Shown here: one piece after another, positions 4,655-17,879 of the stretch | How positions within the stretch are numbered: the first letter of the stretch is position 1 | Layout of the letters: each line of letters begins with the position of its first letter | Origin: a virus | Virus record (IMG/VR): IMGVR_UViG_3300045996_001004 | Span: 1-32,415 of that record | Strand: one strand, 5' to 3' | Length of the DNA: 32,415 nucleotides | Translations under genes and position numbers: made by a program | Notes under the pieces: generated by a model | What the model was told of the DNA's origin: nothing | Seen by the model: only the letters and a program-made list of their open reading frames with translations | Database searches by the model: none

Positions 4655-4855
4655 CTAGGAACCGGTCGCGTCACTCGGCACAGTCTCACCGTCTTGGTGT
4701 GACGGTGTGATGGGTTGATCTGGGTAAGCCTTATTCACAAACCACGTATGGGTTTGTCTGTAAGCAGGGTGATGCCACGAGGCACACCCTAATGCGTTGG
4801 TGATCGCACTGATCTCGTCTTCGGTGAACACGTCACGCAGATCAGGTTTATTCAC
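4655..4855 (-). CDS. Hypothetical protein, 66 aa
   Basis: A mixed, tryptophan- and histidine-containing protein (LGCASWHHPAYRQTHTWFVN). The GTG start at 4855 overlaps the previous gene by eight bases and has GAGGGG upstream. Its C-terminal codons overlap one copy of the dispersed repeat (4697-4715), where it is read as PITPSHQD, so the repeat has been tolerated inside a coding end. Function unknown. Confidence 0.7.
   Translation of the reverse strand: MNKPDLRDVFTEDEISAITNALGCASWHHPAYRQTHTWFVNKAYPDQPITPSHQDGETVPSDATGS
4697..4715 (+). repeat. Dispersed 20-base repeat, copy 1
   Basis: GTGTGACGGTGTGATGGGTT matches the consensus GTGGGATGGTGTGATGGGTT with two changes. It is the only copy lying clearly inside a coding end. 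Confidence 0.55.
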
Positions 4856-5048
4856 TGCGCCCCTCTGAAGGTAAAAGGGTGATACAGTGAACTTCGCTCA
4901 GTGGGATGCTTTCAGGAGGCTTGCCCACGTAATGCACGACTAGTGCAGGTTCTGCCGCACCTGCCGGATGTGGGTAAACACTTGCCATCCGACACTCGAT
5001 CTCACGTGAGCCAGTGAACCCTTTCCAGACGATATGGAGCCTATGCAC
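4848..5048 (-). CDS. Hypothetical protein, 66 aa
   Basis: A probable small beta protein (alternating strands around IVWKGFTGSREIECRM and ALVVHYVGKPPESIPL). The GTG start at 5048 has AAGGAG six bases upstream. It overlaps the next gene by eight bases and follows the preceding gene by 11. Not recognised. Confidence 0.72.
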   Translation of the reverse strand: MHRLHIVWKGFTGSREIECRMASVYPHPAGAAEPALVVHYVGKPPESIPLSEVHCITLLPSEGRSE

Positions 5049-5059
5049 GGTCTACTCCT

Positions 5060-5257
5060 TCACAGCACGTAAGAGATCAAGCGCTGAGCGTGTACGTCGA
5101 GAATGTCGATGCTGGTCTTGGGATACATCTTGAAGTGTTCCCAATGATTCTGCGTGTAGTCACGAATGAAAGCTTTAGCGGCTTCCACATCCGTGAACAC
5201 CTTGGGAGTTACGGGGTTGCTTGGACACCCGTCGTACATCCAGATGACTTGATACAT
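5060..5257 (-). CDS. Hypothetical protein, 65 aa
   Basis: The ATG at 5257 has GAGG six bases upstream, overlapping the end of the preceding gene. The protein starts as a beta strand (YQVIWMYDG), continues with a helix (DVEAAKAFIRDYTQNHWEHF) and ends in another strand, like many small alpha/beta phage accessory proteins. No catalytic motif is visible. Confidence 0.75.
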   Translation of the reverse strand: MYQVIWMYDGCPSNPVTPKVFTDVEAAKAFIRDYTQNHWEHFKMYPKTSIDILDVHAQRLISYVL

Positions 5258-5265
5258 TGGCAGCC

Positions 5266-5466
5266 TCAGTCGATTGAAACGATTTGCGAGACTGGAATAC
5301 TAATTAATCCCGCAGGCACGTTTGTATTCCAGAACTGTGCGTATCGGATTCCGCCTTGAGTGTAGAACAGCACATCAGAAGGAATGCCGACTCGGTAGGT
5401 TACTCGCGTCTCGTCAACGGTATTCTCTTTACCGTCGAGAACTTGCACTTGAACCCATGCGGCCAT
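5266..5466 (-). CDS. Hypothetical beta-rich protein, 66 aa
   Basis: I start this gene at the ATG at 5466 (AAWVQVQVLDGKEN) because GAGG lies five bases upstream. A GTG at 5511 would add a cysteine-rich 15-residue extension without a ribosome site. The sequence is strand-rich (WVQVQVL, RVTYRVG, GGIRYAQFW, ISIPVSQI), suggesting a small beta barrel or sandwich. Function unknown. Confidence 0.68.
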   Translation of the reverse strand: MAAWVQVQVLDGKENTVDETRVTYRVGIPSDVLFYTQGGIRYAQFWNTNVPAGLISIPVSQIVSID

Positions 5467-5511
5467 TGTGACCTCGCTACTCGTGAAGTAACATGAACAA
5501 CAGCATGACAC

Positions 5512-5712
5512 CTAAAACGCGATCTCAGCCTCACCACGGCGAATACGTCTAGCGCACTCACGTTCACCCTGATGCCGCTGGTACTTGCTGCGTCCCTTCA
5601 GACGTTCCACCATATTGAGGCGGGTGATCTCAGTCGTTTGCTGCAATGTCTTGTTGGCCTGAGCAGCAGCCAACGCAGTCACCAGCAAGCTTTTCAAAGT
5701 AGCAAGAGTCAT
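5512..5712 (-). CDS. Hypothetical basic protein with helical N terminus, 66 aa
   Basis: The ATG at 5712 overlaps the upstream stop as ATGA and has AGGAG eight bases before it, so I prefer it to a GTG nine bases further upstream. Residues 1-20 (TLATLKSLLVTALAAAQAN) form a hydrophobic helix and the rest is basic (RLKGRSKYQRHQGERECARR). It could be a membrane-tethered or a helical nucleic-acid-binding protein. Confidence 0.68.
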   Translation of the reverse strand: MTLATLKSLLVTALAAAQANKTLQQTTEITRLNMVERLKGRSKYQRHQGERECARRIRRGEAEIAF

Positions 5713-5912
5713 TCGGCACACTCCTGTAGTTTCCTGAGTCTGGTCCGTTGGTTACAACGTTTAGCGGCTTCCGTACGTTTCTCGCGGCAGTAAACGCACG
5801 CACGGTACAATTCAACGTCGTCAATCTTGTTTCTGCAATACGGACAACGGCCTTTTGCTAACATCCGTTGTCTGTATTCCCGTTGTTGTTTCACGTAACG
5901 TTTAAGGGCCAT
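5709..5912 (-). CDS. Small zinc-ribbon protein, 67 aa
   Basis: Two C-x2-C knuckles (GRCPYC at about residues 22-26 and ACVYC at about 39-42) lie between basic helices (KRYVKQQREYRQRM; RTEAAKRCNQRTRLRK). This is the usual layout of a small nucleic-acid-binding zinc ribbon. The start has GAGG four bases upstream and it overlaps the next gene by four bases. The exact family is not recognised. Confidence 0.75.
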   Translation of the reverse strand: MALKRYVKQQREYRQRMLAKGRCPYCRNKIDDVELYRACVYCREKRTEAAKRCNQRTRLRKLQECAE

Positions 5913-5937
5913 CGCGCCTCACCCTGCGGTGGTTACA

Positions 5938-5972
5938 AACGCTGTAAGGACTTTCAGGAAGTCCTCAGCGTT
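5938..5972. other. Strong intergenic hairpin
   Basis: AACGCTG-AGGACTT pairs with AAGTCCT-CAGCGTT (14 pairs, one TA bulge). It lies just upstream of the zinc-ribbon gene on the minus strand. No U-run follows, so it is probably an RNA stability or processing element. Confidence 0.5.
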
Positions 5973-6008
5973 GGCTTGCGTTCATCACAACAAACATTCT
6001 GATCATGG

Positions 6009-6089
6009 TTATCTCTTTGTACAGGTTTTGTAATGCCCGATCTTTTTACAAACGGGACATTCAACATGCTCAAAATGATTTCGATCCAT
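6009..6089 (-). CDS. Zinc-knuckle peptide, 26 aa
   Basis: An ATG at 6089 with GAGG six bases upstream opens a 26-residue peptide whose core is C-P-V-C-K-K-I-G-H-Y-K-T-C. This is C-x2-C-x4-H-x3-C, one residue short of the retroviral CCHC knuckle. The strong ribosome site and motif support translation. A hairpin at 6111-6141 lies in its leader. Confidence 0.6.
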   Translation of the reverse strand: MDRNHFEHVECPVCKKIGHYKTCTKR

Positions 6090-6110
6090 GTTTAACCTCA
6101 CCTTGAACAC

Positions 6111-6141
6111 TTAAGAGAAAGTCTCTTGGACTCTCTCTTAA
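6111..6141. other. Leader hairpin
   Basis: TTAAGAGA-A-AGTC, loop TCTTG, GACT-C-TCTCTTAA forms a 12-pair hairpin between the 63-aa gene and the zinc-knuckle peptide gene. It ends 22 bases before the latter's start. Confidence 0.5.
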
Positions 6142-6152
6142 TAGTTCAATGG

Positions 6153-6344
6153 TTACACGCCAAAACTTGCTGTTCCCCACCTTGCGATCTGTTTGATGTC
6201 CCACGCCATAGTAAACAAGTCGGTGGGAACCTTGTTTGTGATGTTTTCGATCTGCTCCTTGTGTTCCTTGTACATGCCGGTTCTAGCAATTGACTCTAGC
6301 GAATCAGCTAACTGCTCAAGGGCGTTTCGCATTGCAGCATCCAT
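6153..6344 (-). CDS. Hypothetical helical protein, 63 aa
   Basis: An all-helical, acidic protein (NALEQLADSLESIARTGMYKEHKEQIENI) ending in WGTASFGV. The ATG at 6344 has GGAG nine bases upstream and follows the preceding gene by 12 bases. It ends in TAA. Not recognised. Confidence 0.72.
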   Translation of the reverse strand: MDAAMRNALEQLADSLESIARTGMYKEHKEQIENITNKVPTDLFTMAWDIKQIARWGTASFGV

Positions 6345-6356
6345 GTTTGGTTGCTC

Positions 6357-6887
6357 CTATACAACCCTTGCCACGATGGGTTTCTTTATCTTCAAGCAGC
6401 AATCAGGACAGGCTTTCACCGTCTTGACTGTACTGATGTACTTCTCAGTGAATTCCATTTCCGTTTCGGATACTTGCTTAGCGTCCCAAGTACGGAATGA
6501 CTTGGAGCGTTTCTCCGACGTTGTGGTCAGTCCCTGTAGAGACTTTCCACAGAAACTGCAAGTATTCTCGTCTTGTACTGGAGCCTCACCTTTCATAGCG
6601 TTTTTGGCCCAGTCCGCATTGACGACGATCCGTGACTTATCGGCGGCAACATTTCTGTCCCACAACGATTTGTCCATGTACTGTTTGCGGCTCGCGTCCT
6701 GCATTGCGTTTGCGTTGGCAGCCGCTAACGGATTGAACACTAAGCCCTTGATCCGGACGTGCCGTTGACTGATCTGTACGGACCATGGGCAGTGATCCGT
6801 ACAGTCCCCGTCTATGTGGTACGTTTTGCGTCCACACTCGGCACAATCCCGTTTCTGGAACTTGTTAAGTACGTCCGACTTTGCCAC
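6357..6887 (-). CDS. Multi-zinc-ribbon hypothetical protein, 176 aa
   Basis: Three cysteine knuckles are spread along the protein: CAECG with a downstream C-x3-C near the N terminus, TCSFCG in the middle and CPDCC near the C terminus. A lysine/arginine-rich segment lies between the last two. This suggests a structural zinc protein acting on nucleic acid. The start is ambiguous: GTG at 6887 (GGGAG nine bases upstream, chosen) or TTG at 6893, which overlaps the upstream TGA as TTGA. It ends in TAG. Confidence 0.75.
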   Translation of the reverse strand: MAKSDVLNKFQKRDCAECGRKTYHIDGDCTDHCPWSVQISQRHVRIKGLVFNPLAAANANAMQDASRKQYMDKSLWDRNVAADKSRIVVNADWAKNAMKGEAPVQDENTCSFCGKSLQGLTTTSEKRSKSFRTWDAKQVSETEMEFTEKYISTVKTVKACPDCCLKIKKPIVARVV

Positions 6888-6889
6888 GA

Positions 6890-6973
6890 TCAATCTCTCC
6901 CAACGCTGGAGAACTTGCCGAACAACAGGGAAACCACGAGAGACAGCAGCAAAAACCCGATTACGTACTGCAT
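6890..6973 (-). CDS. Single-pass membrane peptide, 27 aa
   Basis: An ATG at 6973 with GGAG nine bases upstream opens a 27-residue peptide that is mostly one transmembrane helix (YVIGFLLLSLVVSLLFG) with a polar tail. It ends in TGA overlapping the next gene's possible TTG start. Small single-pass phage proteins can act on host membrane complexes; the target is unknown. Confidence 0.55.
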   Translation of the reverse strand: MQYVIGFLLLSLVVSLLFGKFSSVGRD

Positions 6974-6986
6974 TGGTTTGTGCTCC

Positions 6987-7006
6987 GTGGGATGGTGTGA
7001 TGGGTT
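6987..7006 (+). repeat. Dispersed 20-base repeat, copy 2
   Basis: Perfect copy of GTGGGATGGTGTGATGGGTT. It lies between two small minus-strand ORFs, in the same orientation as all other copies. Confidence 0.75.
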
Positions 7007-7024
7007 CGTGACCACATCCGGTCG

Positions 7025-7105
7025 CTATGTGTCGTGTTCTGGCGATCTCGGATGCGAATCTCCCAAAGCGATCACAATAATCAGCTCATCGACGATCTGA
7101 CCCAT
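7025..7105 (-). CDS. Possible small protein, 26 aa
   Basis: An ATG-started frame (GQIVDELIIVIALGDS at the N terminus) ends in TAG. AAGG lies about 10 bases upstream. It fills the gap between two better supported genes, but it is short and the ribosome site is mediocre. Confidence 0.3.
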   Translation of the reverse strand: MGQIVDELIIVIALGDSHPRSPEHDT

Positions 7106-7141
7106 TCAGGAACTACCTTTCCGTTCCGTCGAATTGACTGA

Positions 7142-7405
7142 TTACATATGGTCGTAGGCGCTGTACTTGAAGACTTCCTTACCGGACGGCGTGTAGACGA
7201 TCACCGTTTCGGTCTTGGGCTGTTTGATCCATTCGGATGCAAGGTAAAACATCCGATTGACGTTGGCATCCTGATGATCGATAGCGGGGCGACCATCTTT
7301 GAAGAACTTGACGACGATCCGGTAGTTGTTTGCGGGAGTCTGTACCGGAACGTTGTTACGCTTCGCCGCTAACGCCGCGACAAGATCGAGATCCTTGTAG
7401 CGCAT
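7142..7405 (-). CDS. Hypothetical alpha/beta protein, 87 aa
   Basis: I chose the ATG at 7405 (GAGG nine bases upstream) over a GTG at 7420. The protein has an N-terminal helix (DLDLVAALAAKRN), a strand and lysine turn (RIVVKFFKDGRP), and a C-terminal strand pair (TVIVYTPSGKEVFKY). It resembles small phage accessory proteins of unknown function. It is the first gene after the terminator of the 194-aa gene. Confidence 0.72.
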   Translation of the reverse strand: MRYKDLDLVAALAAKRNNVPVQTPANNYRIVVKFFKDGRPAIDHQDANVNRMFYLASEWIKQPKTETVIVYTPSGKEVFKYSAYDHM

Positions 7406-7707
7406 AGTTGCTTGCCTCACTTCCTAACCTCACCCGGTTTTATTAGTGCGATTACTGAGTAGTAAAGCGTCTTTCGCACCTCACCCGGGTACAATAAAAA
7501 ATCCCCGGCCCTGAACTGCTTACGTGTTCAGGAACCGGGGATCGTCTTACCCGCCGTATTTAGTTTTACGTTTCAGTAATGGGCGGGGAGGTTTGCACGT
7601 AGCCCGTCTTAACTACGCTTTATCTCTCCCCTGTTTGGACGGCTGCACGATATGCCGTTTCGGATATCACATTGGCGTAAACTCCCGGCGTGGGATGGTG
7701 TGATGGG
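7406..7707. other. Intergenic region without a gene
   Basis: This stretch holds the minus-strand terminator at 7495-7542 and one dispersed repeat near its right end. Two G-rich spans (around 7580 and 7630) have short open frames without proper ribosome sites. No gene is supported. Confidence 0.6.
7495..7542 (-). terminator. Rho-independent terminator (minus)
   Basis: ATCCCCGG (7501-7508) pairs with CCGGGGAT (7535-7542), with an inner CTGAAC/GTTCAG stem. On the minus strand it is followed directly by a run of T (complement of 7495-7500). It ends transcription of the 194-aa gene. Confidence 0.85.
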
Positions 7708-7709
7708 TT
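7690..7709 (+). repeat. Dispersed 20-base repeat, copy 3
   Basis: Perfect copy of GTGGGATGGTGTGATGGGTT, overlapping the stop codon of the 194-aa minus-strand gene. Confidence 0.75.
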
Positions 7710-8292
7710 ACTCCGTAGGTTCGTACTTGATTAGCGGCCCGTCTGTAATCGTCAAGCCGCCTGCACTGATACCCAGATCGGGACCGTCAACGGGAATCTC
7801 CTGATCGGGTGTGATTGTCTTGCGGGTGTCTAGTCCGACGCTCACGCTACCTTCACGTTTAAAGTTACGTGCAGCGTGTGTTTCGTTGGAGAACGGGTTA
7901 CCACGGCGTAACAGCGTCCGATCACCGCGCCACGTCATACGTTGATCCGTTACTTCCACAATCGCCCCGGTAACACGGTCGATCTGTTTACCGTGGATTG
8001 CTTCCGTTTCCATCGGTGCCCGCCGACGTTCTAGCCCTTGTTGCTGAGTGACCGACCGACGGGGCACTATGTGTGTGTCCTCGTGTTCCTCAACTACGGA
8101 ACAATCGAACAGTTTCGCGGCGTCTACCAGTCGGGCCGTGGTACTGGTGCCGTGTCTGCTATGGGTATGTCCCAAGTGTGTACCGGACGGCAAGCCGCCG
8201 ATCTTGCTGTGTATGTCGTGCAATCGTTCGCGCTCGTGCTGAGTCAGGCGGCGATTGCTACCGCCACGTTTGCCACGTTTGCCGTTACTCAT
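7708..8292 (-). CDS. Hypothetical protein with C-terminal ISAGGLTIT motif, 194 aa
   Basis: I recognise no family. The first 45 residues are very basic and Gly/Arg/His-rich (SNGKRGKRGGSNRRL). The middle is charged, with a TQQQGLERRRAP stretch, and the C terminus is strand-like. Residues 175-183 read ISAGGLTIT and are followed by exactly 11 residues. The same nine residues, also 11 from the end, occur in the 213-aa protein at 8832-9473, transcribed in the opposite direction. It is the leftward gene of the divergent pair and has its own terminator. No close ribosome site is seen (GGGAG is 16 bases away). Confidence 0.75.
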   Translation of the reverse strand: MSNGKRGKRGGSNRRLTQHERERLHDIHSKIGGLPSGTHLGHTHSRHGTSTTARLVDAAKLFDCSVVEEHEDTHIVPRRSVTQQQGLERRRAPMETEAIHGKQIDRVTGAIVEVTDQRMTWRGDRTLLRRGNPFSNETHAARNFKREGSVSVGLDTRKTITPDQEIPVDGPDLGISAGGLTITDGPLIKYEPTE

Positions 8293-8316
8293 GGTTGTGT
8301 GAGTGATGCTCCCGGC

Positions 8317-8336
8317 GTGGGATGGTGTGATGGATG
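8317..8336 (+). repeat. Dispersed 20-base repeat, copy 4
   Basis: GTGGGATGGTGTGATGGATG, matching the consensus except at the end. It lies just upstream of the leftward gene's start. Confidence 0.7.
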
Positions 8337-8678
8337 CTCCCCGGGCATAGCTCGCGCTACGTTACAGGGGGGCGCGGGTCGCAGCCGGGGTGCCCGTCGA
8401 GGGGCGCGAAGTGGAACCCGGCGAGAATCGCACGGCTCGGCCCGGCCGTCAAGCGGTCCCGCCCGGTTTTTCGACCGGCCCGCGAAAAAAAGTTTCGTCC
8501 ACTTTTCAGGACACCCGGCAGGCGGGCAGCGCTGGACCCCACACGCGCCACGATGCCCCGTAAACCGCTCAGGATGGCTCAGGACGCGCGAACCGGCCCC
8601 GGTGCGGTGTCTAGCTCCCCCCGTCTTGTGCGCCGTTCCTGCGGCCCGTGGCTCGGTCGGACTCGGGGACGGCTGAGC

Positions 8679-8698
8679 GTGGGATGGTGTGACGGGTT
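8679..8698 (+). repeat. Dispersed 20-base repeat, copy 5
   Basis: GTGGGATGGTGTGACGGGTT, one change from consensus. It is followed by a hairpin, a T-run and a promoter, the recurring cassette order. Confidence 0.75.
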
Positions 8699-8700
8699 CA

Positions 8701-8735
8701 GCCCCGCTATGCATAGGGGCGGGCGGCGTGTTTTT
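8701..8735 (+). terminator. Possible weak terminator
   Basis: GCCCC...GGGGC (8701-8720) with an inner TATGCATA palindrome is followed 10 bases later by TTTTT. The spacing is long for a classical terminator, so the call is tentative. Confidence 0.35.
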
Positions 8736-8739
8736 CCAC

Positions 8740-8769
8740 TTGACGGCCCCGGCCCACTGTCTGTAAGCT
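8740..8769 (+). promoter_or_regulatory. Promoter of the 213-aa gene
   Basis: TTGACG and TAAGCT are separated by 18 bases. The TAAGCTGGCG end is identical in the promoter at 10993-11021, which strengthens the call despite a weak -10. Confidence 0.5.
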
Positions 8770-8831
8770 GGCGGGGACAAGACAACACGGCGCAATCGAG
8801 CGCCATCACACAACGTCAACAGCGAGGCAGT

Positions 8832-9473
8832 ATGAGCAGAGACAAAGGCAAGACGAACGGCGGCAACGGAGCGGTAGCGGACGCTATCAACAAGGCGATG
8901 GCTGACGCGGCACAGAACACGGCGGCGGTCGTGGACACGGGCGGGGACGTGGACCTGTCCGCACTCGCGGGGATCGGCTCGACCGACGAGGACACCGAAG
9001 GCGCGGGCGCCACAACGGACGATGACGATCTGGACCCGAACGCCAACGTGTGGGATCGGCTGATTCAGGGCTGGAGCTTCGCCCCGGCAGCGGCCCGCCC
9101 CTTCGACAACGAGAAGAAAACGCAGCGGACGCAGAAGATCGCGGACGTGACGGTGTTGCTGCGGGGAGGCTTCGGGTACGTGCCGGGAGCGGTGAAGCTG
9201 GTGCAGGCGCTCGTCAACGGCGCCCCGCACGGGGAAACGATGCTCGATTTCAATTTCTTCTCGTCGCTCACGAGCACGGCACTCCGCCCCATCACCGACC
9301 GCGCCAAGGTGGATCTCGTCCTGATGCGTCAGCGCATCGCGGCGGATTACCTGAAGTGGCGGGAGGCCAACCCACAGGCGGCAATCGCCACGGCCCGCGC
9401 CGAAACGCGCATCTCGGCGGGCGGACTCACGATCACGATGCCGGAACCCGCGAAGCCTGCGGCAACGGCCTAG
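8832..9473 (+). CDS. Hypothetical protein with C-terminal ISAGGLTIT motif, 213 aa
   Basis: Not recognised. Residues 1-75 are polar and acidic, ending in a TTDDDDLDPN run. Residues about 75-190 are likely folded, with aromatic strands and a final helix (AKVDLVLMRQRIAADYLKWREANP). Residues 194-202 are ISAGGLTIT, with 11 residues after them, as in the divergent 194-aa protein. I start at the ATG at 8832 (GAGG five bases upstream, downstream of the promoter). The frame is open far upstream only because of GC bias. A strong terminator follows at once, so it is a single-gene unit. Confidence 0.8.
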   Translation: MSRDKGKTNGGNGAVADAINKAMADAAQNTAAVVDTGGDVDLSALAGIGSTDEDTEGAGATTDDDDLDPNANVWDRLIQGWSFAPAAARPFDNEKKTQRTQKIADVTVLLRGGFGYVPGAVKLVQALVNGAPHGETMLDFNFFSSLTSTALRPITDRAKVDLVLMRQRIAADYLKWREANPQAAIATARAETRISAGGLTITMPEPAKPAATA

Positions 9474-9482
9474 CTCGACTGA

Positions 9483-9517
9483 ACCGGGATCACCTTGGCG
9501 GGTGGTCCCGGTTTTTT
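9483..9517 (+). terminator. Rho-independent terminator
   Basis: ACCGGGATCACC pairs over 12 bases with GGTGGTCCCGGT around loop TTGGCG and runs into TTTTTT. Confidence 0.92.
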
Positions 9518-9540
9518 CGTTTGTACGGCGCCCGTGCTGC

Positions 9541-9671
9541 ATAAGTAAATTTACTTACGGGTTACGTAATCGGTCCACTTACGTAAGTTGTCCAGATACG
9601 TAAACGGGCAGGTTCGCGCACCCGTAAGCCGTTGTAAGTGAACCGCTTACGTAAGTGGCCAGAAGTTTACG
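9541..9671. repeat. Cluster of TTACGTAA-type palindromes
   Basis: Within 130 bases lie TAAGTAAATTTACTTA (9542-9557), TTACGTAA (9562-9569), ACTTACGTAAGT (9577-9588), TACGTAAAC (9597-9605), CCGTAAGCC (9622-9630), TTGTAAGTG (9632-9640), GCTTACGTAAGT (9645-9656) and AGTTTACGC (9664-9672). All are built on the half-site GTAAGT/ACTTAC. It may be a multi-operator region or an iteron-type origin. Confidence 0.7.
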
Positions 9672-9769
9672 CCCGCCACCTGAACCGGGCAAGCGGAAAC
9701 TGGACCGTTCCGGTATGTAGCCGATTCATACACGGTGTGAATGCTCCCCGAACCCGGCCATATTCGCCC

Positions 9770-9789
9770 GTGGGATGGTGTGATGGGTT
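9770..9789 (+). repeat. Dispersed 20-base repeat, copy 6
   Basis: Perfect copy of GTGGGATGGTGTGATGGGTT, followed by TTTTCCCGG and a hairpin. Confidence 0.75.
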
Positions 9790-9971
9790 TTTCCCGGCAT
9801 TTCGGCGGGTTTTCGGGTTTTTGCCCGATGGCACGGCCTGTGAAGTGTGGGAGGCGGGGCAGTGTGCGCCGTGGTAACGGTGCGGTCCGAACTGCTTGAC
9901 CGTGGTTGATGGGCTGAGCCGGGTGCTACGCTGCCCCGTTGGGCAATTCAGCCCGCTAGGAGGTTGTATCT

Positions 9972-10622
9972 ATGCCAGAAGTGACCCTCGAAACCCTGAA
10001 CGCCGCTGCCAAGCGGCAGGTGCTGGCGCTCCGGCGTCCCGTAATGGATGCGGCGCGGCAATTCGGGGCGGTGCGGGAACGGCTCTCCGACTTGGCCCCC
10101 AAGATCGTGAAGCTGTTCAACATGATCCTCGCGGACAACGAAGCATTCACGTTCGTTTCGTTCGTCCGGCTGTTCGATCCCACGGTCCCCACGCACGCGG
10201 CGGACCGGAACGGCGAGACAGGTTACCGGAATCACCGGACCTACTACACCCTCGCATACATGCGCCGTCTGGTGCAGTTGCAGGGCACCCGGCGGCGGAC
10301 ACCCGGCGGCGTACGGGACAGCGCAACCGATGCACTGGCGCGGACGTTGGCGACCGTGCTGCAAGTGGTCGAGGACTCGGAAGCCGTGTGGCACGCGATT
10401 CAATCCGAGTTTCAATTCACCGAACGCCTGATGACGCGGTTGCGGAAGCGGGTAGACGCAACCAAGCCGCTGATCCAGCTGGAGCCGACACGCCGCGCCA
10501 CGGTCAGCGTGGGCAAAGTGATCCATATGGAGCGGACGGAACCCACGCAAGCGGAAGCGGCCCAGGCCGACACCATCGAGGCCGACACACGCGGCACACG
10601 CAAGCGGGCACGTGCAGCGTAG
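9972..10622 (+). CDS. Hypothetical protein, 216 aa
   Basis: Not recognised. It is largely helical and Arg/Ala-rich: an N-terminal helix pair (LNAAAKRQVLALRRPVMDAA), a hydrophobic core near residues 40-70 (KLFNMILADNEAFTFVSFVRL), and a basic C-terminal tail ending RGTRKRARAA after an acidic TIEADT stretch. AGGAGG lies eight bases before the ATG, one of the best ribosome sites in this block. It lies immediately right of the palindrome cluster, so a DNA-binding or replication-initiator role is worth testing, but no helix-turn-helix is evident by eye. It ends in TAG. Confidence 0.78.
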   Translation: MPEVTLETLNAAAKRQVLALRRPVMDAARQFGAVRERLSDLAPKIVKLFNMILADNEAFTFVSFVRLFDPTVPTHAADRNGETGYRNHRTYYTLAYMRRLVQLQGTRRRTPGGVRDSATDALARTLATVLQVVEDSEAVWHAIQSEFQFTERLMTRLRKRVDATKPLIQLEPTRRATVSVGKVIHMERTEPTQAEAAQADTIEADTRGTRKRARAA

Positions 10623-10713
10623 CGCGGCCCAACTCGACGCCGGGGCAGGTTCGTAAGCCTGTCTCGGCGTATCTCTCACCCGTTGACGCGACACATAACG
10701 AACCGAGGCACCT

Positions 10714-10920
10714 ATGGTGATGCGTGACGAGAGTTCCCCTTTACATGAACGGCTGTCCAAGCTGCTGGATCAACAGCACCGCACCCCGGACGGGCGGGTG
10801 CAATGCTGCGAATGCCCACGGGCGGCAGTAGAACGGAGCACCGACGATCAACAGGTCCGCTGCCGGGACTGTTGGGAGCGGCACCGCTTGCGGTTTCGAC
10901 GGGTAGACCGGCGCGTGTGA
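10714..10920 (+). CDS. Small zinc-ribbon protein, 68 aa
   Basis: Two C-x2-C pairs (CCEC at about residues 31-34 and CRDC at about 50-53) flank an 'ERSTDDQQVR' linker. The tail is Arg-rich (ERHRLRFRRVDRRV), the usual layout of a small nucleic-acid-binding zinc ribbon. GAGG precedes the ATG by five bases. The stop TGA lies within a dispersed-repeat copy. Confidence 0.75.
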   Translation: MVMRDESSPLHERLSKLLDQQHRTPDGRVQCCECPRAAVERSTDDQQVRCRDCWERHRLRFRRVDRRV

Positions 10921-10932
10921 CGGTGGGATGGC
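10915..10932 (+). repeat. Dispersed repeat, divergent copy 7
   Basis: GTGTGACGGTGGGATGGC overlaps the stop codon of the zinc-ribbon gene and is followed by a GTGTGGGG/CCCTACAC hairpin (10936-10959) and then a promoter. Confidence 0.5.
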
Positions 10933-10935
10933 TCT

Positions 10936-10959
10936 GTGTGGGGATCTGCGACCCTACAC
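10936..10959 (+). terminator. Hairpin, possible weak terminator
   Basis: GTGTGGGG pairs with CCCTACAC (eight pairs, one G-U) around ATCTGCGA. There is no immediate U-run, so termination is uncertain. Confidence 0.35.
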
Positions 10960-10992
10960 GGGGCCGTTTCGTCTGTACGGGTATGTTTTTTG

Positions 10993-11021
10993 TTGACTAC
11001 TTACGTAAGTGGGCATAAGCT
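10993..11021 (+). promoter_or_regulatory. Promoter with operator palindrome in its spacer
   Basis: TTGACT, 17-base spacer, TAAGCT. The spacer contains the perfect 12-base palindrome ACTTACGTAAGT, so a bound regulator would directly cover the RNA polymerase site. Confidence 0.65.
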
Positions 11022-11374
11022 GGCGCGGGCAGCATACACACGGCGGACGGCAAGGCAAACGGAGTGCTGCGGGCGCACCGGCAAGCTAGCACAGGACTGT
11101 GCACAGCCTAGAATCCGGTCTTTCCCCGCGCACCACTAACGGAGGCCGCGCTATCCGCTTCGACACGGGGCGAGGATCAGGAACCAAGAGGCGGGATCGG
11201 GTACCGGGGCCGGATGCATACGGCGTCGGTCTGCCCCAAGCCGCTGCGGTAAGACGCTCCCCCGTGTCACTGCCCCTTGTTTGTCGGCCCGCTTCCGTAG
11301 CCAGAGGCTAACCAAAGTAGCTGCAACGTAGCGAAACGGGCGGGGCGGGCCTTTTTTCGCTAGGAGGTCACGTT

Positions 11375-11743
11375 ATGCGATGTGCAATTTGCGGCGGCAG
11401 CGGACCGGATCGGGATCTGCGGATGGTCGTCCGGGACGATTACGAGGCGGTACAAGGCACGTATCCGCCGGATGTGATCCACAACCCGGAACACGCGGCA
11501 GCACTGGGCCGGATGTGCGGGCTACTGGATCGGCTGGTCGATCCGTTGGCGCGGGTGGAGTGCAAGCCGTGCCGGGTTCAGCAAGCACGGGAGCGGGAGG
11601 CCGAGGCACGGGAACACGCCGAGGCGCGGGGCGAGTACGACGGGGAAACGTTGGGGCGGACGTATCACGATGTAGTGCAGCGGTCCCGGCTCCGGGTGCT
11701 GCGGGCACACCTCGTGCGGCTGTATGGCTCACGGGTGCATTAA
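11375..11743 (+). CDS. Zinc-ribbon/coiled-coil hypothetical protein, 122 aa
   Basis: C-x2-C pairs occur at the N terminus (RCAICGG) and near residue 64 (ECKPC), followed by a long Arg/Glu/Ala helix (QQAREREAEAREHAEARGEY) and a basic end. The first pair resembles the knuckle of HNH-type or zinc-ribbon proteins, but the catalytic HNH residues are not evident. AGGAGG lies seven bases before the ATG. It is the first gene of a run of overlapping small genes to 12535. Confidence 0.75.
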   Translation: MRCAICGGSGPDRDLRMVVRDDYEAVQGTYPPDVIHNPEHAAALGRMCGLLDRLVDPLARVECKPCRVQQAREREAEAREHAEARGEYDGETLGRTYHDVVQRSRLRVLRAHLVRLYGSRVH

Positions 11744-11760
11744 GGGGGAGGGATCAGACC

Positions 11761-12012
11761 ATGCGGCTACTACACCCGTTAGCGTGCCCTGAGCACGGGT
11801 ACCAACGGCTGGAAACGTGTGACATTTGCGTAGACGCCGCGCACCGGGAGCGGCAACTACAGCACTCGGAGGGACCGAATCAAAAAACACTCTGCGGCCT
11901 GCCGGTAGCGATGGCGGTCACCGGCCCGGTCCCGGCAGACTGGGCACGCTGCGGCGACTGTGACCGCTTGGCGAAGCTGCGGGAGGTAAGACAGGCGGTG
12001 GGCCATGTTTAA
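11761..12012 (+). CDS. Small cysteine-rich protein, 83 aa
   Basis: It contains C-x2-H (CPEH), C-x2-C (CDIC), a lone LCGLP and CGDC near the C terminus, which is enough for one or two zinc sites. GGGAGGGATCAGACC precedes the ATG, so the ribosome site is good. It overlaps the next gene by eight bases. The segment between the knuckles, ending TGPVPADWARC, is seen in small actinophage zinc proteins; that likeness is only an impression. Confidence 0.7.
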   Translation: MRLLHPLACPEHGYQRLETCDICVDAAHRERQLQHSEGPNQKTLCGLPVAMAVTGPVPADWARCGDCDRLAKLREVRQAVGHV

Positions 12013-12211
12013 CGTGCCCCACTACAGCATCATCAGAGCCACTGACGGGCGGACCTTTGGTTACTCCCTGCACGGTGACAGCGCTAGTGATTTGGCACGG
12101 GGGCTGAGCCTGTATTACCCAAACGTGGCCTTTGTCGTCTACCGGCACGGCGGCACAAGCCCCAAGGCGATAGCGTTTCGCGCCGTCAATGGACGGTTAC
12201 AGCAATCTTAG
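12005..12211 (+). CDS. Hypothetical alpha/beta protein, 68 aa
   Basis: Strand (HYSIIRATDGRTFGYSL), helix (SASDLARGLSLYY), strand (VAFVVYRHGG) and a final strand make this a small compact alpha/beta protein. It starts inside the end of the preceding gene, a translational coupling arrangement, and ends in TAG. No motif is recognised. Confidence 0.7.
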   Translation: MFNVPHYSIIRATDGRTFGYSLHGDSASDLARGLSLYYPNVAFVVYRHGGTSPKAIAFRAVNGRLQQS

Positions 12212-12220
12212 GGAGGCATC

Positions 12221-12346
12221 ATGTTGGACCGGTTACGGGACGGTTACACCCGGTTTCTCATGCGACGGATGGACCGCTGCCAAACAGAGCGCGGCTTACG
12301 GTTCTGGGAATGGATCGCAGTGCATACCACGGCGGCGGATTACTGA
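12221..12346 (+). CDS. Small basic protein, 41 aa
   Basis: GGGAGG four bases before the ATG opens a 41-residue peptide with basic, Arg-rich helices (LDRLRDGYTRFLMRRMDRC) and a Trp-containing second helix (LRFWEWIAVH). It ends in TGA. The strong ribosome site and close packing between genes support it. Confidence 0.6.
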   Translation: MLDRLRDGYTRFLMRRMDRCQTERGLRFWEWIAVHTTAADY

Positions 12347-12361
12347 CGGGGAGGTGAGCGT

Positions 12362-12535
12362 ATGGATAAGCGGCAAGCCGTCAAGCTCACGATCACGGTA
12401 AGCGGTGAAACTGACCGAGACCCGTGGGAATGGGCGGAAGGAATCGCCCGATCCTTAGCGGATGATTTGAACGCCGCTAACGGGGAGGGATGGCCCCCGA
12501 TCACTGTCGAAGCGACTGACGCTGAACCGGTGTGA
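12362..12535 (+). CDS. Hypothetical protein, 57 aa
   Basis: GGGGAGGTGAGCGT precedes the ATG. The protein has a strand (AVKLTITVSGET), a helix (EWAEGIARSLADDLNAA) and a second strand (ITVEATD), suggesting a small beta-alpha-beta fold. It ends in TGA inside a dispersed-repeat copy, and a terminator follows. Confidence 0.65.
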   Translation: MDKRQAVKLTITVSGETDRDPWEWAEGIARSLADDLNAANGEGWPPITVEATDAEPV

Positions 12536-12547
12536 TGGTGGGATGCT
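12530..12547 (+). repeat. Dispersed repeat, divergent copy 8
   Basis: GTGTGATGGTGGGATGCT overlaps the stop codon of the 57-aa gene and lies directly before the terminator. Confidence 0.5.
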
Positions 12548-12549
12548 TT

Positions 12550-12580
12550 GGACCGGCCCTAGTGGTCGGTCCGTTGTTTT
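12550..12580 (+). terminator. Rho-independent terminator
   Basis: GGACCGGCC pairs with GGTCGGTCC (one G-U) around CTAGT and is followed by GTTGTTTT. Confidence 0.75.
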
Positions 12581-12596
12581 GTACGGCGGTTTTAAG

Positions 12597-12625
12597 TTGA
12601 CTACTTACGTAAGTGGGCGTATTCT
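12597..12625 (+). promoter_or_regulatory. Promoter with operator palindrome in its spacer
   Basis: TTGACT, 17-base spacer, TATTCT. The first 16 bases of the spacer, including ACTTACGTAAGT, are identical to those of the promoter at 10993-11021, so the two units are co-regulated. Confidence 0.68.
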
Positions 12626-12672
12626 CGCGGCGCGGCCGTTTCACACACACAAGCGGCCCGGAGGATACCGAC

Positions 12673-13017
12673 ATGCAGAATGCAGACGTGAGACAAGATC
12701 CGGCGACGACGCCCGTAAGTTTCTTGCGGGACGGGTACGGCAACCTGATCGAGCGGTTCGAGCGGGACGGGATCGTAGACGTGCGGGTAACGCTCGCGGA
12801 CCGGATCGAGCGGGCCATCCTGCCCAACGATCACGAGATGCGGGAACGGTGCAAGCTGACGGTCGTGCGGTGGTACTGGCGCCGGGTGGGAGTGCTGCCG
12901 GAGTCGCCCGCCGATGCCCTGCCGGATGAGGCGCCCGAGTCCAACGCCCACCGCCGCGAGTGCGAGCACGGGTACACGTCCAACTGTCGGGCCTGCAACC
13001 CGGACGGGCCGTTCTGA
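12673..13017 (+). CDS. Hypothetical protein with C-terminal CxxC-type knuckle, 114 aa
   Basis: I start at the ATG at 12673 (GGAGG eight bases upstream, downstream of the promoter). The frame is open upstream but that part would overlap the promoter. The body is charged and mixed, with FLRDGYGNLIERFERDGIVD and a VVRWYWRRVGVLP segment. The last 20 residues (CEHGYTSNCRACNPDG) form a C-x-H/C-x2-C knuckle likely to bind zinc. It overlaps the next gene as TGATG. Confidence 0.72.
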   Translation: MQNADVRQDPATTPVSFLRDGYGNLIERFERDGIVDVRVTLADRIERAILPNDHEMRERCKLTVVRWYWRRVGVLPESPADALPDEAPESNAHRRECEHGYTSNCRACNPDGPF

Positions 13018-13292
13018 TGGCGGCGCGGAAGCGGATCGGGTTCGTGGCGGCGCCCCGTGTCGGCTCGGGTTACTGGCTGCACTACACAGCCCCGGAGCGC
13101 GAGGACGACGGGCAGGGGGCCGTCGTCGGGCACGAAGAGCGGATTCACTACTGCGCCACGCTGCGGATTGCCAAGCGTAAAGCTCACCGGGTGATGGCGG
13201 ACCCCGAGGTGACGTGGGCGACCATCACGAAACCGCTGTTTCACGTCCGCAGAATGCCCTACAGGGCACGCAAGCGGGCAAGGAAAGGGTAA
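13017..13292 (+). CDS. Basic hypothetical protein, 91 aa
   Basis: The ATG overlaps the upstream stop (TGATG). The protein is beta-like at first (IGFVAAPRVGSGYWLHYT), contains an acidic turn (EREDDGQG) and ends in a strongly basic tail (MPYRARKRARKG). It may bind nucleic acid. Not recognised. Confidence 0.68.
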   Translation: MAARKRIGFVAAPRVGSGYWLHYTAPEREDDGQGAVVGHEERIHYCATLRIAKRKAHRVMADPEVTWATITKPLFHVRRMPYRARKRARKG

Positions 13293-13295
13293 GGC

Positions 13296-13391
13296 ATGGT
13301 CTATCTCGTCGCGGCGCTGGTGTGGCTGATAGCGGGCGGCGTGTTTGCCTCCGTTTTCGGTCGCGTGGCAAAAACCTACGGGGGAGACTGA
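13296..13391 (+). CDS. Single-pass membrane peptide, 31 aa
   Basis: A 31-residue frame starts four bases after the previous stop, with AAAGGGTAAGG upstream. It is mostly one hydrophobic helix (VYLVAALVWLIAGGVFASVF) followed by GRVAKTYGGD, so the C terminus is probably cytoplasmic. It is small but well packed between genes. Confidence 0.55.
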   Translation: MVYLVAALVWLIAGGVFASVFGRVAKTYGGD

Positions 13392-13396
13392 CACCC

Positions 13397-13612
13397 ATGC
13401 TCTACGGCATCGCACTCGGACGGCTCTGTATGCCGGTGGAATACATCCGCCAGCTACCCACCGCACTAGCCGGGAAGCACCTGATCGGGATTGCGACCAC
13501 GGTAGAAGACCTGATGACTGCTCAGGCGCGGGCGGCACGCTTGGCCCGGCCGATTAACACCTACACTCGCGTTACACCCCACGGCACCCTGCACGGCATC
13601 TATCGGCGGTAG
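13397..13612 (+). CDS. Hypothetical protein, 71 aa
   Basis: GGGGGAGACTGACACCC precedes the ATG. The protein is mixed alpha/beta: GIALGRLCMPVEYIRQL, then a helix rich in Ala/Arg (DLMTAQARAARLARP) and a strand end (YTRVTPHGTLHGIYRR). Not recognised. It ends the run of small genes before a 458-base gap. Confidence 0.65.
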   Translation: MLYGIALGRLCMPVEYIRQLPTALAGKHLIGIATTVEDLMTAQARAARLARPINTYTRVTPHGTLHGIYRR

Positions 13613-13827
13613 CTGGCCTACAGACCGCCCTGCAAGTTTGCTCCCCGGCAGCTAGCAATCCCGCTAGCACCCCCACGGCTCGGCCTCACGGTCAGCCACA
13701 CTCGCAGGTGAGGGGGCCGGGGAGCATCCCGCCTGTACGGCCTCACCACGCGCCCGTAAGCCGCACCACGCGCCCGCCAGCGGTCCCGGTTGCCCTTTGC
13801 TGGCTCGCCTTGAGCGGCTCAGGTCCG

Positions 13828-13847
13828 GGGGGATGGTGGGATGGCTT
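13828..13847 (+). repeat. Dispersed repeat, divergent copy 9
   Basis: GGGGATGGTGGGATGGCTTG, related to the consensus mainly in the GGATGGTG core. Confidence 0.4.
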
Positions 13848-13907
13848 GGGGCAGGGGGCCGGATGGCTGAGCCACACGCGCAGGCCCGGTTTTGTTGGGG
13901 TTTTCGG

Positions 13908-13927
13908 GTGTGATGGTGTGATGGGTT
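13908..13927 (+). repeat. Dispersed 20-base repeat, copy 10
   Basis: GTGTGATGGTGTGATGGGTT, one change from consensus, about 100 bases before the promoter candidate. Confidence 0.7.
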
Positions 13928-14011
13928 CACGGGGGGATCAAGATGGCCGGGTGTGCGGGCCGTGCTGCTCGACAATTCTGCCCGTTTCGGGAAGCGGACA
14001 AGTGTTTTTCC

Positions 14012-14070: not shown

Positions 14071-14223
14071 ATGTGGAACGTCTTTTGGTCGTATCCGGGT
14101 GGCGGGCGCGAAGCGTGGGCGTGCTGTGCGAAGAAACGGGACGCCGAGGTAATCGCGGCGTTGCTCAGGGATCATGGTTGCGCGGACGTGCGGATCGTTC
14201 GCTATCAGAAAGGGCGTGCGTGA
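14071..14223 (+). CDS. Hypothetical protein, 50 aa
   Basis: AAGGGAG lies seven bases before the ATG. The peptide resembles a small beta-alpha-beta unit (NVFWSYPGGGREAWACCAKK, then a helix RDAEVIAALLRDHGC and a strand VRIVRYQKG). It ends in TGA overlapping the ATPase start (TGATG), so the two are translationally coupled. Confidence 0.7.
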   Translation: MWNVFWSYPGGGREAWACCAKKRDAEVIAALLRDHGCADVRIVRYQKGRA

Positions 14224-15326
14224 TGACTGGACAGGATTTGCTGACACAGTGGACGGCGTTCATTCGACAGTACGTGTATTGCTCGCAGGCGCAAGGCATG
14301 GTCCTCGCGTTGTGGGCTATGAACACGTGGGTGTATGAGCATTTCGCGGCGGTCCCGTACCTGGAGATTGTTGCGAGGACCAAGGAGAGCGGCAAGACAA
14401 CGGTGTTGGATGTGCTCAAGATGCTTTGCCGAGGCCCGGAGAAGTTTGCGATTGTCCGGGTGCTGACGATCCTGCGGATGATTGAAGAGTCCGAGGGGAA
14501 GATCACGATCTTGATTGATGAGGCGGAACAGTTCAGCAAGCCGTCATTGGGCGAGACTCGGAGCGGTATCGCGACGGGTTACAAGCCGGGTGCTCAGCAC
14601 GCTATCAGCGTGGGCAAGGGCTTTCAGCGGTTCAGGACGTATGCGCCGTGGGCGTTCGCGCAGATCGGCAACGTGCATGATGTGTTGCGGTCGCGGTGCA
14701 TCGAGATCATGCTGGACCGGGGCAAGCCGGAGCGGTACTTGATCGATTACGAGATGTCCGCTAAATCGGACGCTCAAGAGCTTGTCGTACAGTTCGTGCA
14801 GTTCGCCCGGTCCAAGGTGAAAGACGGCAAGATGCACATCCCGATTATCCCGGCTGACTGGCTCACGAGCGGCCGTGAGCGGGAGTTGTGGACGCCGTTG
14901 GTTTCGTTGGCCGGGTGGCTTGGGGTTCATGCCGATACCATGCGGCAGATACAGGCCGCAAGCGTAGACCTTGGGCTGCTCAAGACGCTACCGCCGATCA
15001 AGTGGCACTCGGCGCAAGACGAGGCCGATACCGAGGAACGGGATATGGCCGTCCGGCTGTTGCGGGATCTGGCCAGCGTGATTACGCCGGCTGACGAGGG
15101 CGTCATCTTCTCGCGTGATGCCGTGGAACGGCTCAGGGCTATCGACACGGCGCCTTGGCGTGGATGGCGTGGAACGGGCATCAACGAGATTGGGCTTGGC
15201 GCTCTGCTGCGGCGGTACGGGCTGGAGAGTGCAACGCAAAGCAAGGGCAAGGGACGCAAGGGGCGCGTGCAAGCGCAGGGCTACAAGACAGCGGAGATTC
15301 TTGCGGCGCGCAAGCGAGACGAGTAA
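14223..15326 (+). CDS. DUF3631-type P-loop ATPase (putative replication helicase), 367 aa
   Basis: A Walker A variant ARTKESGKTT sits at residues 51-60 and a Walker B ITILIDEAE at 94-102, followed by an IGNVHDVLRSRCIEI sensor-like strand. The C-terminal third (around LRAIDTAPWRGW...LGALLRRYGLES...QGYKTAEILAA) matches the pattern of DUF3631, a domain found in phage, plasmid and island primase-helicase proteins. No primase domain is fused here. The likely role is DNA unwinding or loading, which is inference. I start at the ATG overlapping the preceding stop. A strong terminator follows. Confidence 0.8.
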   Translation: MTGQDLLTQWTAFIRQYVYCSQAQGMVLALWAMNTWVYEHFAAVPYLEIVARTKESGKTTVLDVLKMLCRGPEKFAIVRVLTILRMIEESEGKITILIDEAEQFSKPSLGETRSGIATGYKPGAQHAISVGKGFQRFRTYAPWAFAQIGNVHDVLRSRCIEIMLDRGKPERYLIDYEMSAKSDAQELVVQFVQFARSKVKDGKMHIPIIPADWLTSGRERELWTPLVSLAGWLGVHADTMRQIQAASVDLGLLKTLPPIKWHSAQDEADTEERDMAVRLLRDLASVITPADEGVIFSRDAVERLRAIDTAPWRGWRGTGINEIGLGALLRRYGLESATQSKGKGRKGRVQAQGYKTAEILAARKRDE

Positions 15327-15388: not shown

Positions 15389-15531
15389 GTACTTGACTAT
15401 CATTCAGAACCGTGCGCCACTTCCGGCCATATGACTTGAGCGACAGGGGAAAATCGGGGGGCGGGGGGAGTCACGTACGTGGCACGAGCGGGTTTTCTAA
15501 AATTTTAAAAATACAAATTTTCAGTATTCGC

Positions 15532-16222: not shown

Positions 16223-16406
16223 AGCAGTTCAGGACTATCTGTTTAAGGTCTACTTAACACAGATGTTACAGGGGTTTGAGAAGCAATGGGCATCCCAGCC
16301 GACTCCAATCTATCTCCCCCAGCCTTCCATGCAGGAATGGCACGTGTTCATAGATGATTTCGTAGACAGTATTCTAGATAAGGAACCAATTGAACGAAGA
16401 CGGTAA
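16215..16406 (+). CDS. Hypothetical protein, 63 aa
   Basis: The GTG start at 16215 overlaps the preceding stop by eight bases, with GGAG upstream. The protein has an aromatic N-terminal helix (VQDYLFKVYLTQMLQGFEKQW), a proline-rich linker (SQPTPIYLPQPS) and a helix with acidic residues (FIDDFVDSILDKEPIE). It overlaps the terminase ATPase start by 17 bases. Function unknown; possibly packaging-related by position. Confidence 0.7.
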   Translation: MNKAVQDYLFKVYLTQMLQGFEKQWASQPTPIYLPQPSMQEWHVFIDDFVDSILDKEPIERRR

Positions 16407-17232
16407 GCTAGTAGTCACGCTCCCAGACGGTAAACTCGAAACAATGTACGAGCCTACCTCTGAGAAACACATGTGGTTTCACCAGACCCCTACCAAAAAC
16501 CTTTTGGCATACGGGAATAGAGGCGGGGGAAAGAGCCATTTGCTCCGCTTTGACGCCCATATGAGGGCGCTTAGCGTCCCGGGCTCCCGCCTAATCCTCA
16601 TTCGTAAGACGTATCCCCAGCTTTTGCAGTCTCATTTGCAGTATATTCCGCAAGAGATGGCGAAACTGGGTGGACACTACCACAAAACAGAACATATTGC
16701 GTATTATCCAAACGACTCCAGACTGTTCTTCTCGCACGTAGCGACCGAAGAGGACTCTCTGAACCTGTTGTCTGCGGAATATATCGCTGCATACTTCGAT
16801 GAGTTGTCTACGATCTCGTGGGACTTCTTCGTAAAGCTGTGTGCATCTGTTCGTATCGGCGGCAAGTTGAAAGATATGGGGATTAAGGGCGTCGTGAGAG
16901 CAGCGACTAATCCCCTTGGGCCTTCTGCTGCTGAAGTTTTCTCTTATTTCGTGAACAAGGACGTTCCACCAGAGGACGATGCGGACTACGATCCACGGGA
17001 TTGGGACTCAATCAAGATTCAGATGGCCGATAACGCTCATATCGACATCGAGGACTACAAAAAGAGATTCGCTGGTATGCCTTCGTATCTGAAAAAGGCG
17101 TGGTTAGAGGGCGATTTCGCGCTGGAGAACCAGTTGTTCGACTTCAAACCAATCAAAGACGGTAGACAATACCACGTTATCAAGGAAATGCCGACGATTA
17201 ACGGCAAGCCATTGGTAGGAGTAAGCTGGTAA
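16390..17232 (+). CDS. terL: Terminase large subunit, ATPase half, 280 aa
   Basis: Walker A is GNRGGGKSH (residues 42-50) and Walker B is IAAYFDE (132-138), with the coupling motif AATNP near residue 185. This is the ATP-driven DNA packaging motor domain. It begins at a TTG with AAGGA five bases upstream, inside the end of the previous gene. It ends in TAA, overlapping the next ATG by one base (TAATG), so the ATPase and nuclease halves are separate ORFs in different frames. Full-length TerL proteins usually have about 450-550 residues, and the sum of the two halves is 495. Confidence 0.92.
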   Translation: MNEDGKLVVTLPDGKLETMYEPTSEKHMWFHQTPTKNLLAYGNRGGGKSHLLRFDAHMRALSVPGSRLILIRKTYPQLLQSHLQYIPQEMAKLGGHYHKTEHIAYYPNDSRLFFSHVATEEDSLNLLSAEYIAAYFDELSTISWDFFVKLCASVRIGGKLKDMGIKGVVRAATNPLGPSAAEVFSYFVNKDVPPEDDADYDPRDWDSIKIQMADNAHIDIEDYKKRFAGMPSYLKKAWLEGDFALENQLFDFKPIKDGRQYHVIKEMPTINGKPLVGVSW

Positions 17233-17879
17233 TGGATTTACAGTGGCATCAGCACGAGTCAGTGCAGATTTACAGGGGCTTCGACCTTGGATTCTTCCCA
17301 GATCCTGCTTACTGTGTCTGGGTAGCGCACATCGGTAACCGTTTCATCGCCTTCAAAGAGAAGCTTTGGTATCAACAGGTTGCTCCAGACATCGCAAAGG
17401 ACATCGTAGAAGAGTCTAGAGGCATGAAAGTCGCCATGACTTACTGCGATCCGGTCATGGACATCAAGACAGCGGCCGATGTTCGCAGCATCAGGGAAAT
17501 CTTCGAAGAGAATGGCGTCCCGATGGAGGCCAGCATCAACAACCGAGAGCACTACGCACATGCCGTGCACACAGCGTTGAAGGAAGAGGTAGCGCCGGGG
17601 GTTCCAAGGCTACAAATTCTGGAAAGAACACCGGGTTTCGGGGACATGGGTTGTCCATATCTGATAAAGACCATTCCTCAGATGCGTTTTGACCCCAAAC
17701 ACCCTCTTAGAATGGCAGACAGTCGTAACGACCACGGGGTTATCGCTTTAGCGTATTTCTTAATCAGTTCGGGTGCAGTAGAACGTCGCAGTGTTGCAGC
17801 CATCAACAAGTTGCCTAAGTGGATGCGACCGAAATACGAAGCCAAAAAAGACAAATTCTTAGGATACAATCAACCATAA
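17232..17879 (+). CDS. terL: Terminase large subunit, nuclease half, 215 aa
   Basis: This is the RNase H-fold nuclease that cuts DNA at packaging. The acidic triad is visible: D18 in RGFDLG, D73 in YCDP and D167 in SRNDHGV, followed by the IALAYFL helix. It starts at an ATG overlapping the ATPase stop (TAATG), an arrangement for termination-reinitiation. The N terminus (DLQWHQHESVQIYRG) is the region that normally joins the two domains, so this is a split gene. No intron or insertion separates the parts. Confidence 0.9.
   Translation: MDLQWHQHESVQIYRGFDLGFFPDPAYCVWVAHIGNRFIAFKEKLWYQQVAPDIAKDIVEESRGMKVAMTYCDPVMDIKTAADVRSIREIFEENGVPMEASINNREHYAHAVHTALKEEVAPGVPRLQILERTPGFGDMGCPYLIKTIPQMRFDPKHPLRMADSRNDHGVIALAYFLISSGAVERRSVAAINKLPKWMRPKYEAKKDKFLGYNQP

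Follow-up and report, generated by a model that had tools for sequence, protein, structure and literature searches.

One-way arrays of paired octamers in the early region of a tailed phage and its relatives: candidate iteron-like sites of a DUF3631 protein

The early region of the IMG/VR virus record IMGVR_UViG_3300045996_001004 carries a dispersed repeat, at positions 4697-13927, followed by a gene for a DUF3631 (RepAM-type) AAA+ protein. The record, analysed here as one window comprising all of its 32,415 bases, comes from a tailed phage with no near relative among the GenBank phages searched. A preliminary description had listed a 20-base repeat with perfect and altered copies, and all ten positions were recovered (Table 1): the 20-mer GTGGGATGGTGTGATGGGTT has exact copies at 6987, 7690 and 9770, and copies with one to three mismatches at 4697, 8317, 8679, 13828 and 13908. 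The copies at 10915 and 12530 are five and four bases off, yet fit a tandem pair of the octamer GTGKGAYG. The true unit in the window is this head-to-tail pair, GTGKGAYG-GTGKGAYG, with G(G/C)TT after it in most cases. All eight copies of the 20-mer with three or fewer mismatches are on the plus strand, against a chance expectation of 0.00 (100 dinucleotide shuffles), and the exact 20-mer was absent from the other IMG/VR contigs searched. Ten pairs lie on the plus strand and none on the minus strand, with 0 expected, and the restriction to the plus strand whatever the gene direction, as first described, therefore stands. The single octamer occurs 21 times on the plus strand, 19 of them inside the ten pairs, and once on the minus strand; as nearly all octamers sit in pairs, selection acts on the pair rather than on the single octamer. 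At 4-15.4 kb a de novo search for tandem 8-mers returned 10 copies, whereas none of 60 shuffles gave more than 3.

The pairs are spaced 80-2290 bp apart over a total span of 9.2 kb, and the late block holds no copy, in agreement with the preliminary description. Six copies (6987, 8317, 8679, 9770, 13828 and 13908) lie between genes. The copy at 7690 touches a stop codon and those at 10915 and 12530 contain a TGA stop, which bears out the reported overlap with stop codons; at 4697 the copy falls within a small open reading frame (ORF), in its 3' end. The sites lack the genome-wide polar spread of Chi- or KOPS-type signals, being confined to 4.7-13.9 kb in the window and to 81-87 kb of 99.8 kb in the related genome G002; nor are they clustered head to tail in one short segment beside a gene, as the iterons of a compact origin would be. 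A GC-rich island at about 8000-14000 of the window (0.62-0.66 versus about 0.5) overlaps the DUF3631 module and the array's right part, and an island of this kind is also present in G002 and the relative L098.

Related loci were gathered by capsid search (20) and by large-terminase search (34), and arrays were found in the window and in seven relatives (G002, L100, L098, L091, L083, L085 and L019). Since the window is a whole record, the genome-wide distribution could be checked only in G002, whose capsid protein is 81% identical. The unit there is GTGTTGCG-GTGTTGCG, with six copies and one weak copy; all exact and one-mismatch copies fall at 81,043-86,861 on one strand, repeating the strand bias of the window. 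The unit is GTGCAACG in L098, GGTAGCAC in L100, GTGT(T/G)ACG in L091 and L019, GTGTAACG in L083 and GTGTAACC in L085. Tandem-octamer counts made de novo were 10 in the window, 7 in G002, 7 in L100 and 3 in L098, against shuffle maxima of 2-3. The fragments L091, L083, L085 and L019 hold two copies each and are weaker evidence, the count in L083 being equal to its shuffle maximum. Eleven related early regions sampled upstream of TerL, the large terminase gene, held one or two tandems each, which is the shuffle level; single sites in G005 (L043:2563), G004 (12152) and L075 (5814) may be chance, and a G002 17-mer matched 18 stretches, of which two were G002 itself and the others are probably chance. 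Several G002 sites lie at the same gene borders as those of the window, namely at both ends of the homolog of the gene at 7708-8292, beyond the divergent promoter region and in the segment before the DUF3631 gene. The arrays thus show sites rewritten in concert across the phage lineage, and differing units at conserved positions are as expected of sites that co-evolve with a cognate protein.

Within each array every copy points one way, whatever the direction of the local genes, and about 10 of 35 copies are antisense to the adjoining genes. These reversed copies are located among minus-strand genes at 4697, 6987, 7690 and 8317 in the window, at 921, 1044, 1967 and 2659 in G002 (L041 coordinates) and at 4089 and 6007 in L100, whose array had initially been read on the opposite strand. 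As GTNNNAC, the half-unit, forms a dyad, direction is set by the spacer base and the centre; with C as the spacer in L085, the direction of that array relative to the others is ambiguous.

A DUF3631 AAA+ protein is the sole early family common to the four best-covered arrays (window, G002, L098 and L100). When all early L100 ORFs were compared with the window and G002 (E < 0.01), and L098 with L100, only two marginal ORF matches were obtained besides it. A hidden Markov model (HMM) of the protein placed the window, G002, L091, L098 and L100 above threshold and no other relative in the set; the L100 row had been entered in the model out of frame, and L100 matched regardless. The same HMM search found no DUF3631 gene in the 11 array-less relatives sampled upstream of TerL, and the first 157 bases of the L083 contig code, by eye, for a matching DUF3631 C-terminus. 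Scores against PF12307 were 54.7 bits for the window, 49.7 for G002 and 26.7 for L100 (cutoff 24), and in a five-phage alignment identity to the window protein was 30-45%. Short repeated sites lie near the gene in the window (13828 and 13908), G002, L091, L098 and L100. An AlphaFold model of the window protein is of moderate quality (predicted local distance difference test, pLDDT, 71); its last 80 residues are winged-helix-like, and it aligns with MCM AAA+ helicases (VIA Z 9.8). The protein encoded at 9972-10622 was also considered as a binder, and is less likely because it is present in G005 and L075, which lack arrays, and was not found in L100; its model gave no convincing PDB match. Searches of genome contigs for a host, with the capsid and DUF3631 proteins, gave no match.

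Short repeats would be expected at unrelated DUF3631 genes too, if they are what DUF3631 proteins read. Tandem 9-bp repeats are indeed present at or just after distant DUF3631 genes, namely those of Streptomyces plasmids, of a Nonomuraea replicon and of a further viral contig. In the last of these (L110; 27% identical), five perfect copies of CGTCGGTTC lie near the 5' end of the gene and six inverted copies of GAACCGACG at its 3' end. In two Streptomyces plasmids GTAGCGG occurs 13 times in 361 bp around the end of the DUF3631 gene, versus 2 elsewhere in 13.5 kb (L112), and 12 times within about 370 bp, versus 6 elsewhere (L113); in both, genes for a primase/polymerase and an integrase lie close to the DUF3631 gene. 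In Nonomuraea (L114) there are 9 copies of TACGGCT immediately after the gene, versus 6 elsewhere in 17 kb. These counts are descriptive only, because the segments were picked after the repeats had been seen. The cores are like those of the phage units, with GGTAGC present in L112, L113 and L100, and TTACGGC in L114 and at an L091 site.

The repeats are best read as iteron-like binding sites of the phage's own DUF3631/RepAM-type AAA+ protein, paired, scattered over 9 kb and held in one orientation, a reading to which we would give a probability of about 60%. Binding by this protein is suggested by the co-occurrence, adjacency and co-variation of sites and gene, and a role for it in replication by what is known of the family, since DUF3631 corresponds to RepAM, the replication initiator of pMEA300, one of the actinomycete elements (PMC3218068). 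The preliminary description had offered a DNA element for replication as one option, and this is supported by the fixed orientation, the conserved positions with changed sequence and the exclusive sharing of an initiator-type gene. The predicted C-terminal winged helix could read one octamer per subunit, and the protein would then assemble on octamer pairs in the divergent early region (4.7-13.9 kb), where the assembled complexes might start or steer DNA replication. The protein perhaps also controls the early genes whose borders hold sites, and may serve an early or auxiliary replication mode, or regulation. With all pairs facing the same way, helicase loading would be polar, the orientation of the sites possibly setting helicase polarity. 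A distributed polar origin is a tentative elaboration, conceivable and on present odds doubtful: a RepAM-like helicase would be loaded from many one-way iteron pairs, replication or helicase travel would leave one way, and each lineage would have re-spelled its sites together with its initiator.

Several observations weigh against binding by the DUF3631 protein. In the RepAM-like and SaPI-type elements considered, the repeats are clustered, the RepAM-like ones in both directions, whereas the sites of the window all point one way and are spread over 9 kb. The DUF3631 protein is not necessarily the replicative helicase, given that G002 codes for a DNA polymerase of its own as well as for a helicase/primase-like protein. 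The six co-occurrences of array and gene are not phylogenetically independent, and two further DUF3631 loci, Phipami28 (L108) and L111, are without a clear tandem array. Residues 73-155 of the model, the AAA+ core, are poorly predicted and no Foldseek match had an E value under 0.001, which makes the fold assignment a supporting argument and not a decisive one. In addition, a regulator encoded elsewhere in a genome of about 100 kb could be the true binder.

The RepAM (DUF3631, PF12307) modules of actinomycete integrative conjugative elements, such as pMEA300, share the protein family and, in Streptomyces and Nonomuraea replicons, short tandem repeats with similar cores at or just after the gene. 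Those repeats are 9-bp units within about 370 bp in both orientations, whereas in the phages 8-bp pairs with a single orientation extend over 9 kb, mostly upstream of the gene, beside which no prim-pol gene was seen. The SaPI Rep and SCCmec Cch2 helicases, self-loading initiators with iteron origins, recognise repeats beside their own gene (PMC7581432), and these repeats are short and element-specific, as in the phages. They belong to other helicase subfamilies (DUF927, Primase_Cterm) and their iterons are compact and directly downstream of the gene; the C-terminal DNA-binding domain that SaPI Rep joins to its helicase is only predicted in the window protein. The alpha protein of P4 combines a helicase with winged-helix origin binding, and its iterons lie in two separate places, ori and crr; these are two compact clusters, as against ten pairs over 9 kb. 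The literature searched described neither such a spread-out layout for initiator sites nor iterons for the DUF3631/RepAM family. The binding sites proposed here for that family would thus be of a probably known kind in a new arrangement, and the arrays raise the question of why initiator sites should be scattered over 9 kb and still be fixed in one orientation.

Tandem 8-bp boxes resemble MetJ or omega-type operators, and the sites may instead be operators of another phage regulator, of the helix-turn-helix or ribbon-helix-helix type, that co-regulates the early operons. The presence of sites at many early gene borders, several of them 40-100 bp upstream of promoter-like sequences, and their concerted change between phages, as in immunity-type operators, are in keeping with such a regulator. 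None was seen among the early proteins scanned, besides DUF3631 no early gene is common to all four well-covered array genomes, and a strict orientation across divergent operons would be unexpected, which leaves this explanation rather unlikely. A repressor that blocks transcription elongation at gene borders, as at the stoperators of Cluster A mycobacteriophages, would account for asymmetric sites, dispersed over stop codons and intergenic gaps, with a phage-specific sequence. Stoperators are single 13-bp sites, tied to a repressor, that follow the direction of transcription and fail if reversed (PMC6550527, PMC9283540), whereas the sites of the window are tandem octamers whose orientation is independent of transcription. 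The single orientation, kept even among leftward genes and leaving about 10 of 35 copies reversed relative to local genes, argues against any element bound to follow transcription. Simple motif and partial family searches found no integrase, ParA or repressor in G002, and no cognate repressor or immunity gene was seen in the window, itself a fragment, or in the family-searched part of G002; stoperator-like sites are quite improbable.

A polar replication-fork barrier of the Tus/RTP type, another strand-directional element or a strand-specific priming signal would fit an orientation that is uniform irrespective of genes, and sites confined to the part of the window where gene direction and GC skew switch. 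No separate fork-arrest protein is known, the array tracks a helicase/initiator-type gene, and the cumulative GC-skew minimum of G002 is near 90 kb and not at the divergent promoters, so that this possibility is improbable. The preliminary description had also raised an RNA-level signal, which might act in antitermination, stability or translation start. Some copies do precede terminators or ribosome-binding-like sequences, but the antisense copies, a 20-mer without intrinsic fold and a frequency of terminator hairpins near background speak against it; a terminator-like hairpin follows 5 of 33 sites, compared with 9% of random positions, and a link between site and terminator was rejected. Gene cassettes and mobile short repeats were also dismissed, because the same gene borders in relatives hold differently spelled sites, a pattern that the recent spread of a repeat would not produce. 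An RNA signal or a mobile repeat is very improbable. The confinement of the sites to the early region, at conserved gene borders, is at odds with the packaging signal or recombination hot spot likewise proposed at the outset, and a G-quadruplex was rejected because neither G002 nor L098 keeps the G-runs.

Table 1. Sites and associated features in the early region of the window
Feature	Position	Strand	Remarks
Tandem-octamer site GTGTGACG-GTGTGATG-GGTT	4697..4716	+	Inside 3' end of small minus-strand ORF 4655-4855
Tandem-octamer site, perfect	6987..7006	+	Just 5' of 27-aa minus-strand small ORF (by eye); counterpart G002 81,043
Tandem-octamer site, perfect	7690..7709	+	Touches stop codon of minus-strand gene 7708-8292; counterpart G002 81,966
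Conserved early gene	7708..8292	-	No assigned function; sites on both flanks in window and G002
Tandem-octamer site	8317..8336	+	5' leader of minus-strand gene 7708-8292; counterparts G002 82,658, L100 6007
Leftward promoter-like site TTGACG, 17 nt, GATTCT	8424..8452	-	Conserved in G002; by eye, not reported by consensus scan
Tandem-octamer site	8679..8698	+	About 60 bp upstream of rightward promoter-like site; counterparts G002 82,995, L100 6344
Rightward promoter-like site TTGACG, 18 nt, TAAGCT	8740..8769	+	Read by eye and absent from consensus-scan output; conserved in G002 and L100
Tandem-octamer site, perfect	9770..9789	+	Upstream of gene 9972-10622
Conserved early protein	9972..10622	+	60-68% identical in G002 and L098
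Tandem-octamer site GTGTGACG-GTGGGATG	10915..10934	+	Contains TGA stop of plus-strand gene 10714-10920; counterpart L098 1387
Tandem-octamer site GTGTGATG-GTGGGATG	12530..12549	+	Contains TGA stop of plus-strand gene 12362-12535, then terminator-like hairpin; counterparts L098 2486, G002 86,397
Tandem-octamer site, weakest of ten	13828..13847	+	Upstream of DUF3631 gene
Tandem-octamer site GTGTGATG-GTGTGATG	13908..13927	+	Last before DUF3631 gene; counterparts G002 86,846, L098 3023, L091 269
DUF3631 (RepAM-type) AAA+ protein, proposed binder	14223..15326	+	Predicted C-terminal winged helix; start codon set by homolog alignment

A second dispersed set in the window consists of the palindrome AAGTAAATTTACTT at 2520, 9543, 15828 and 24159 (two exact, two near), which is also present in G002 and L098. 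TTACGTAA occurs at 9562, 9579, 9647, 11001 and 12605, twice within promoter-like spacers, and both sequences look like operators of another regulator. The 16 bases GTGCGCCACTTCCGGC, at 15412-15427 before the late block, recur with at most two mismatches in all array-bearing relatives and were not found, at up to two mismatches, in L084 or L076. The large terminase of the window is encoded by two ORFs (16390-17232 and 17232-17879), joined at a TAATG that separates the ATPase part from the nuclease part; that of L018 is split at the same place, and most other relatives have it intact. A Rfam scan of the window returned no family besides transfer RNA (tRNA), of which there is a cluster at 22720-23029 and 24727-24797, one with a UGA-reading anticodon. 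G002 has a tRNA with a UAA-reading anticodon, and TAA is the stop of most late ORFs of the window. The leftward gene block includes an SPFH/Band 7 family protein, encoded on the minus strand at 533-1900.

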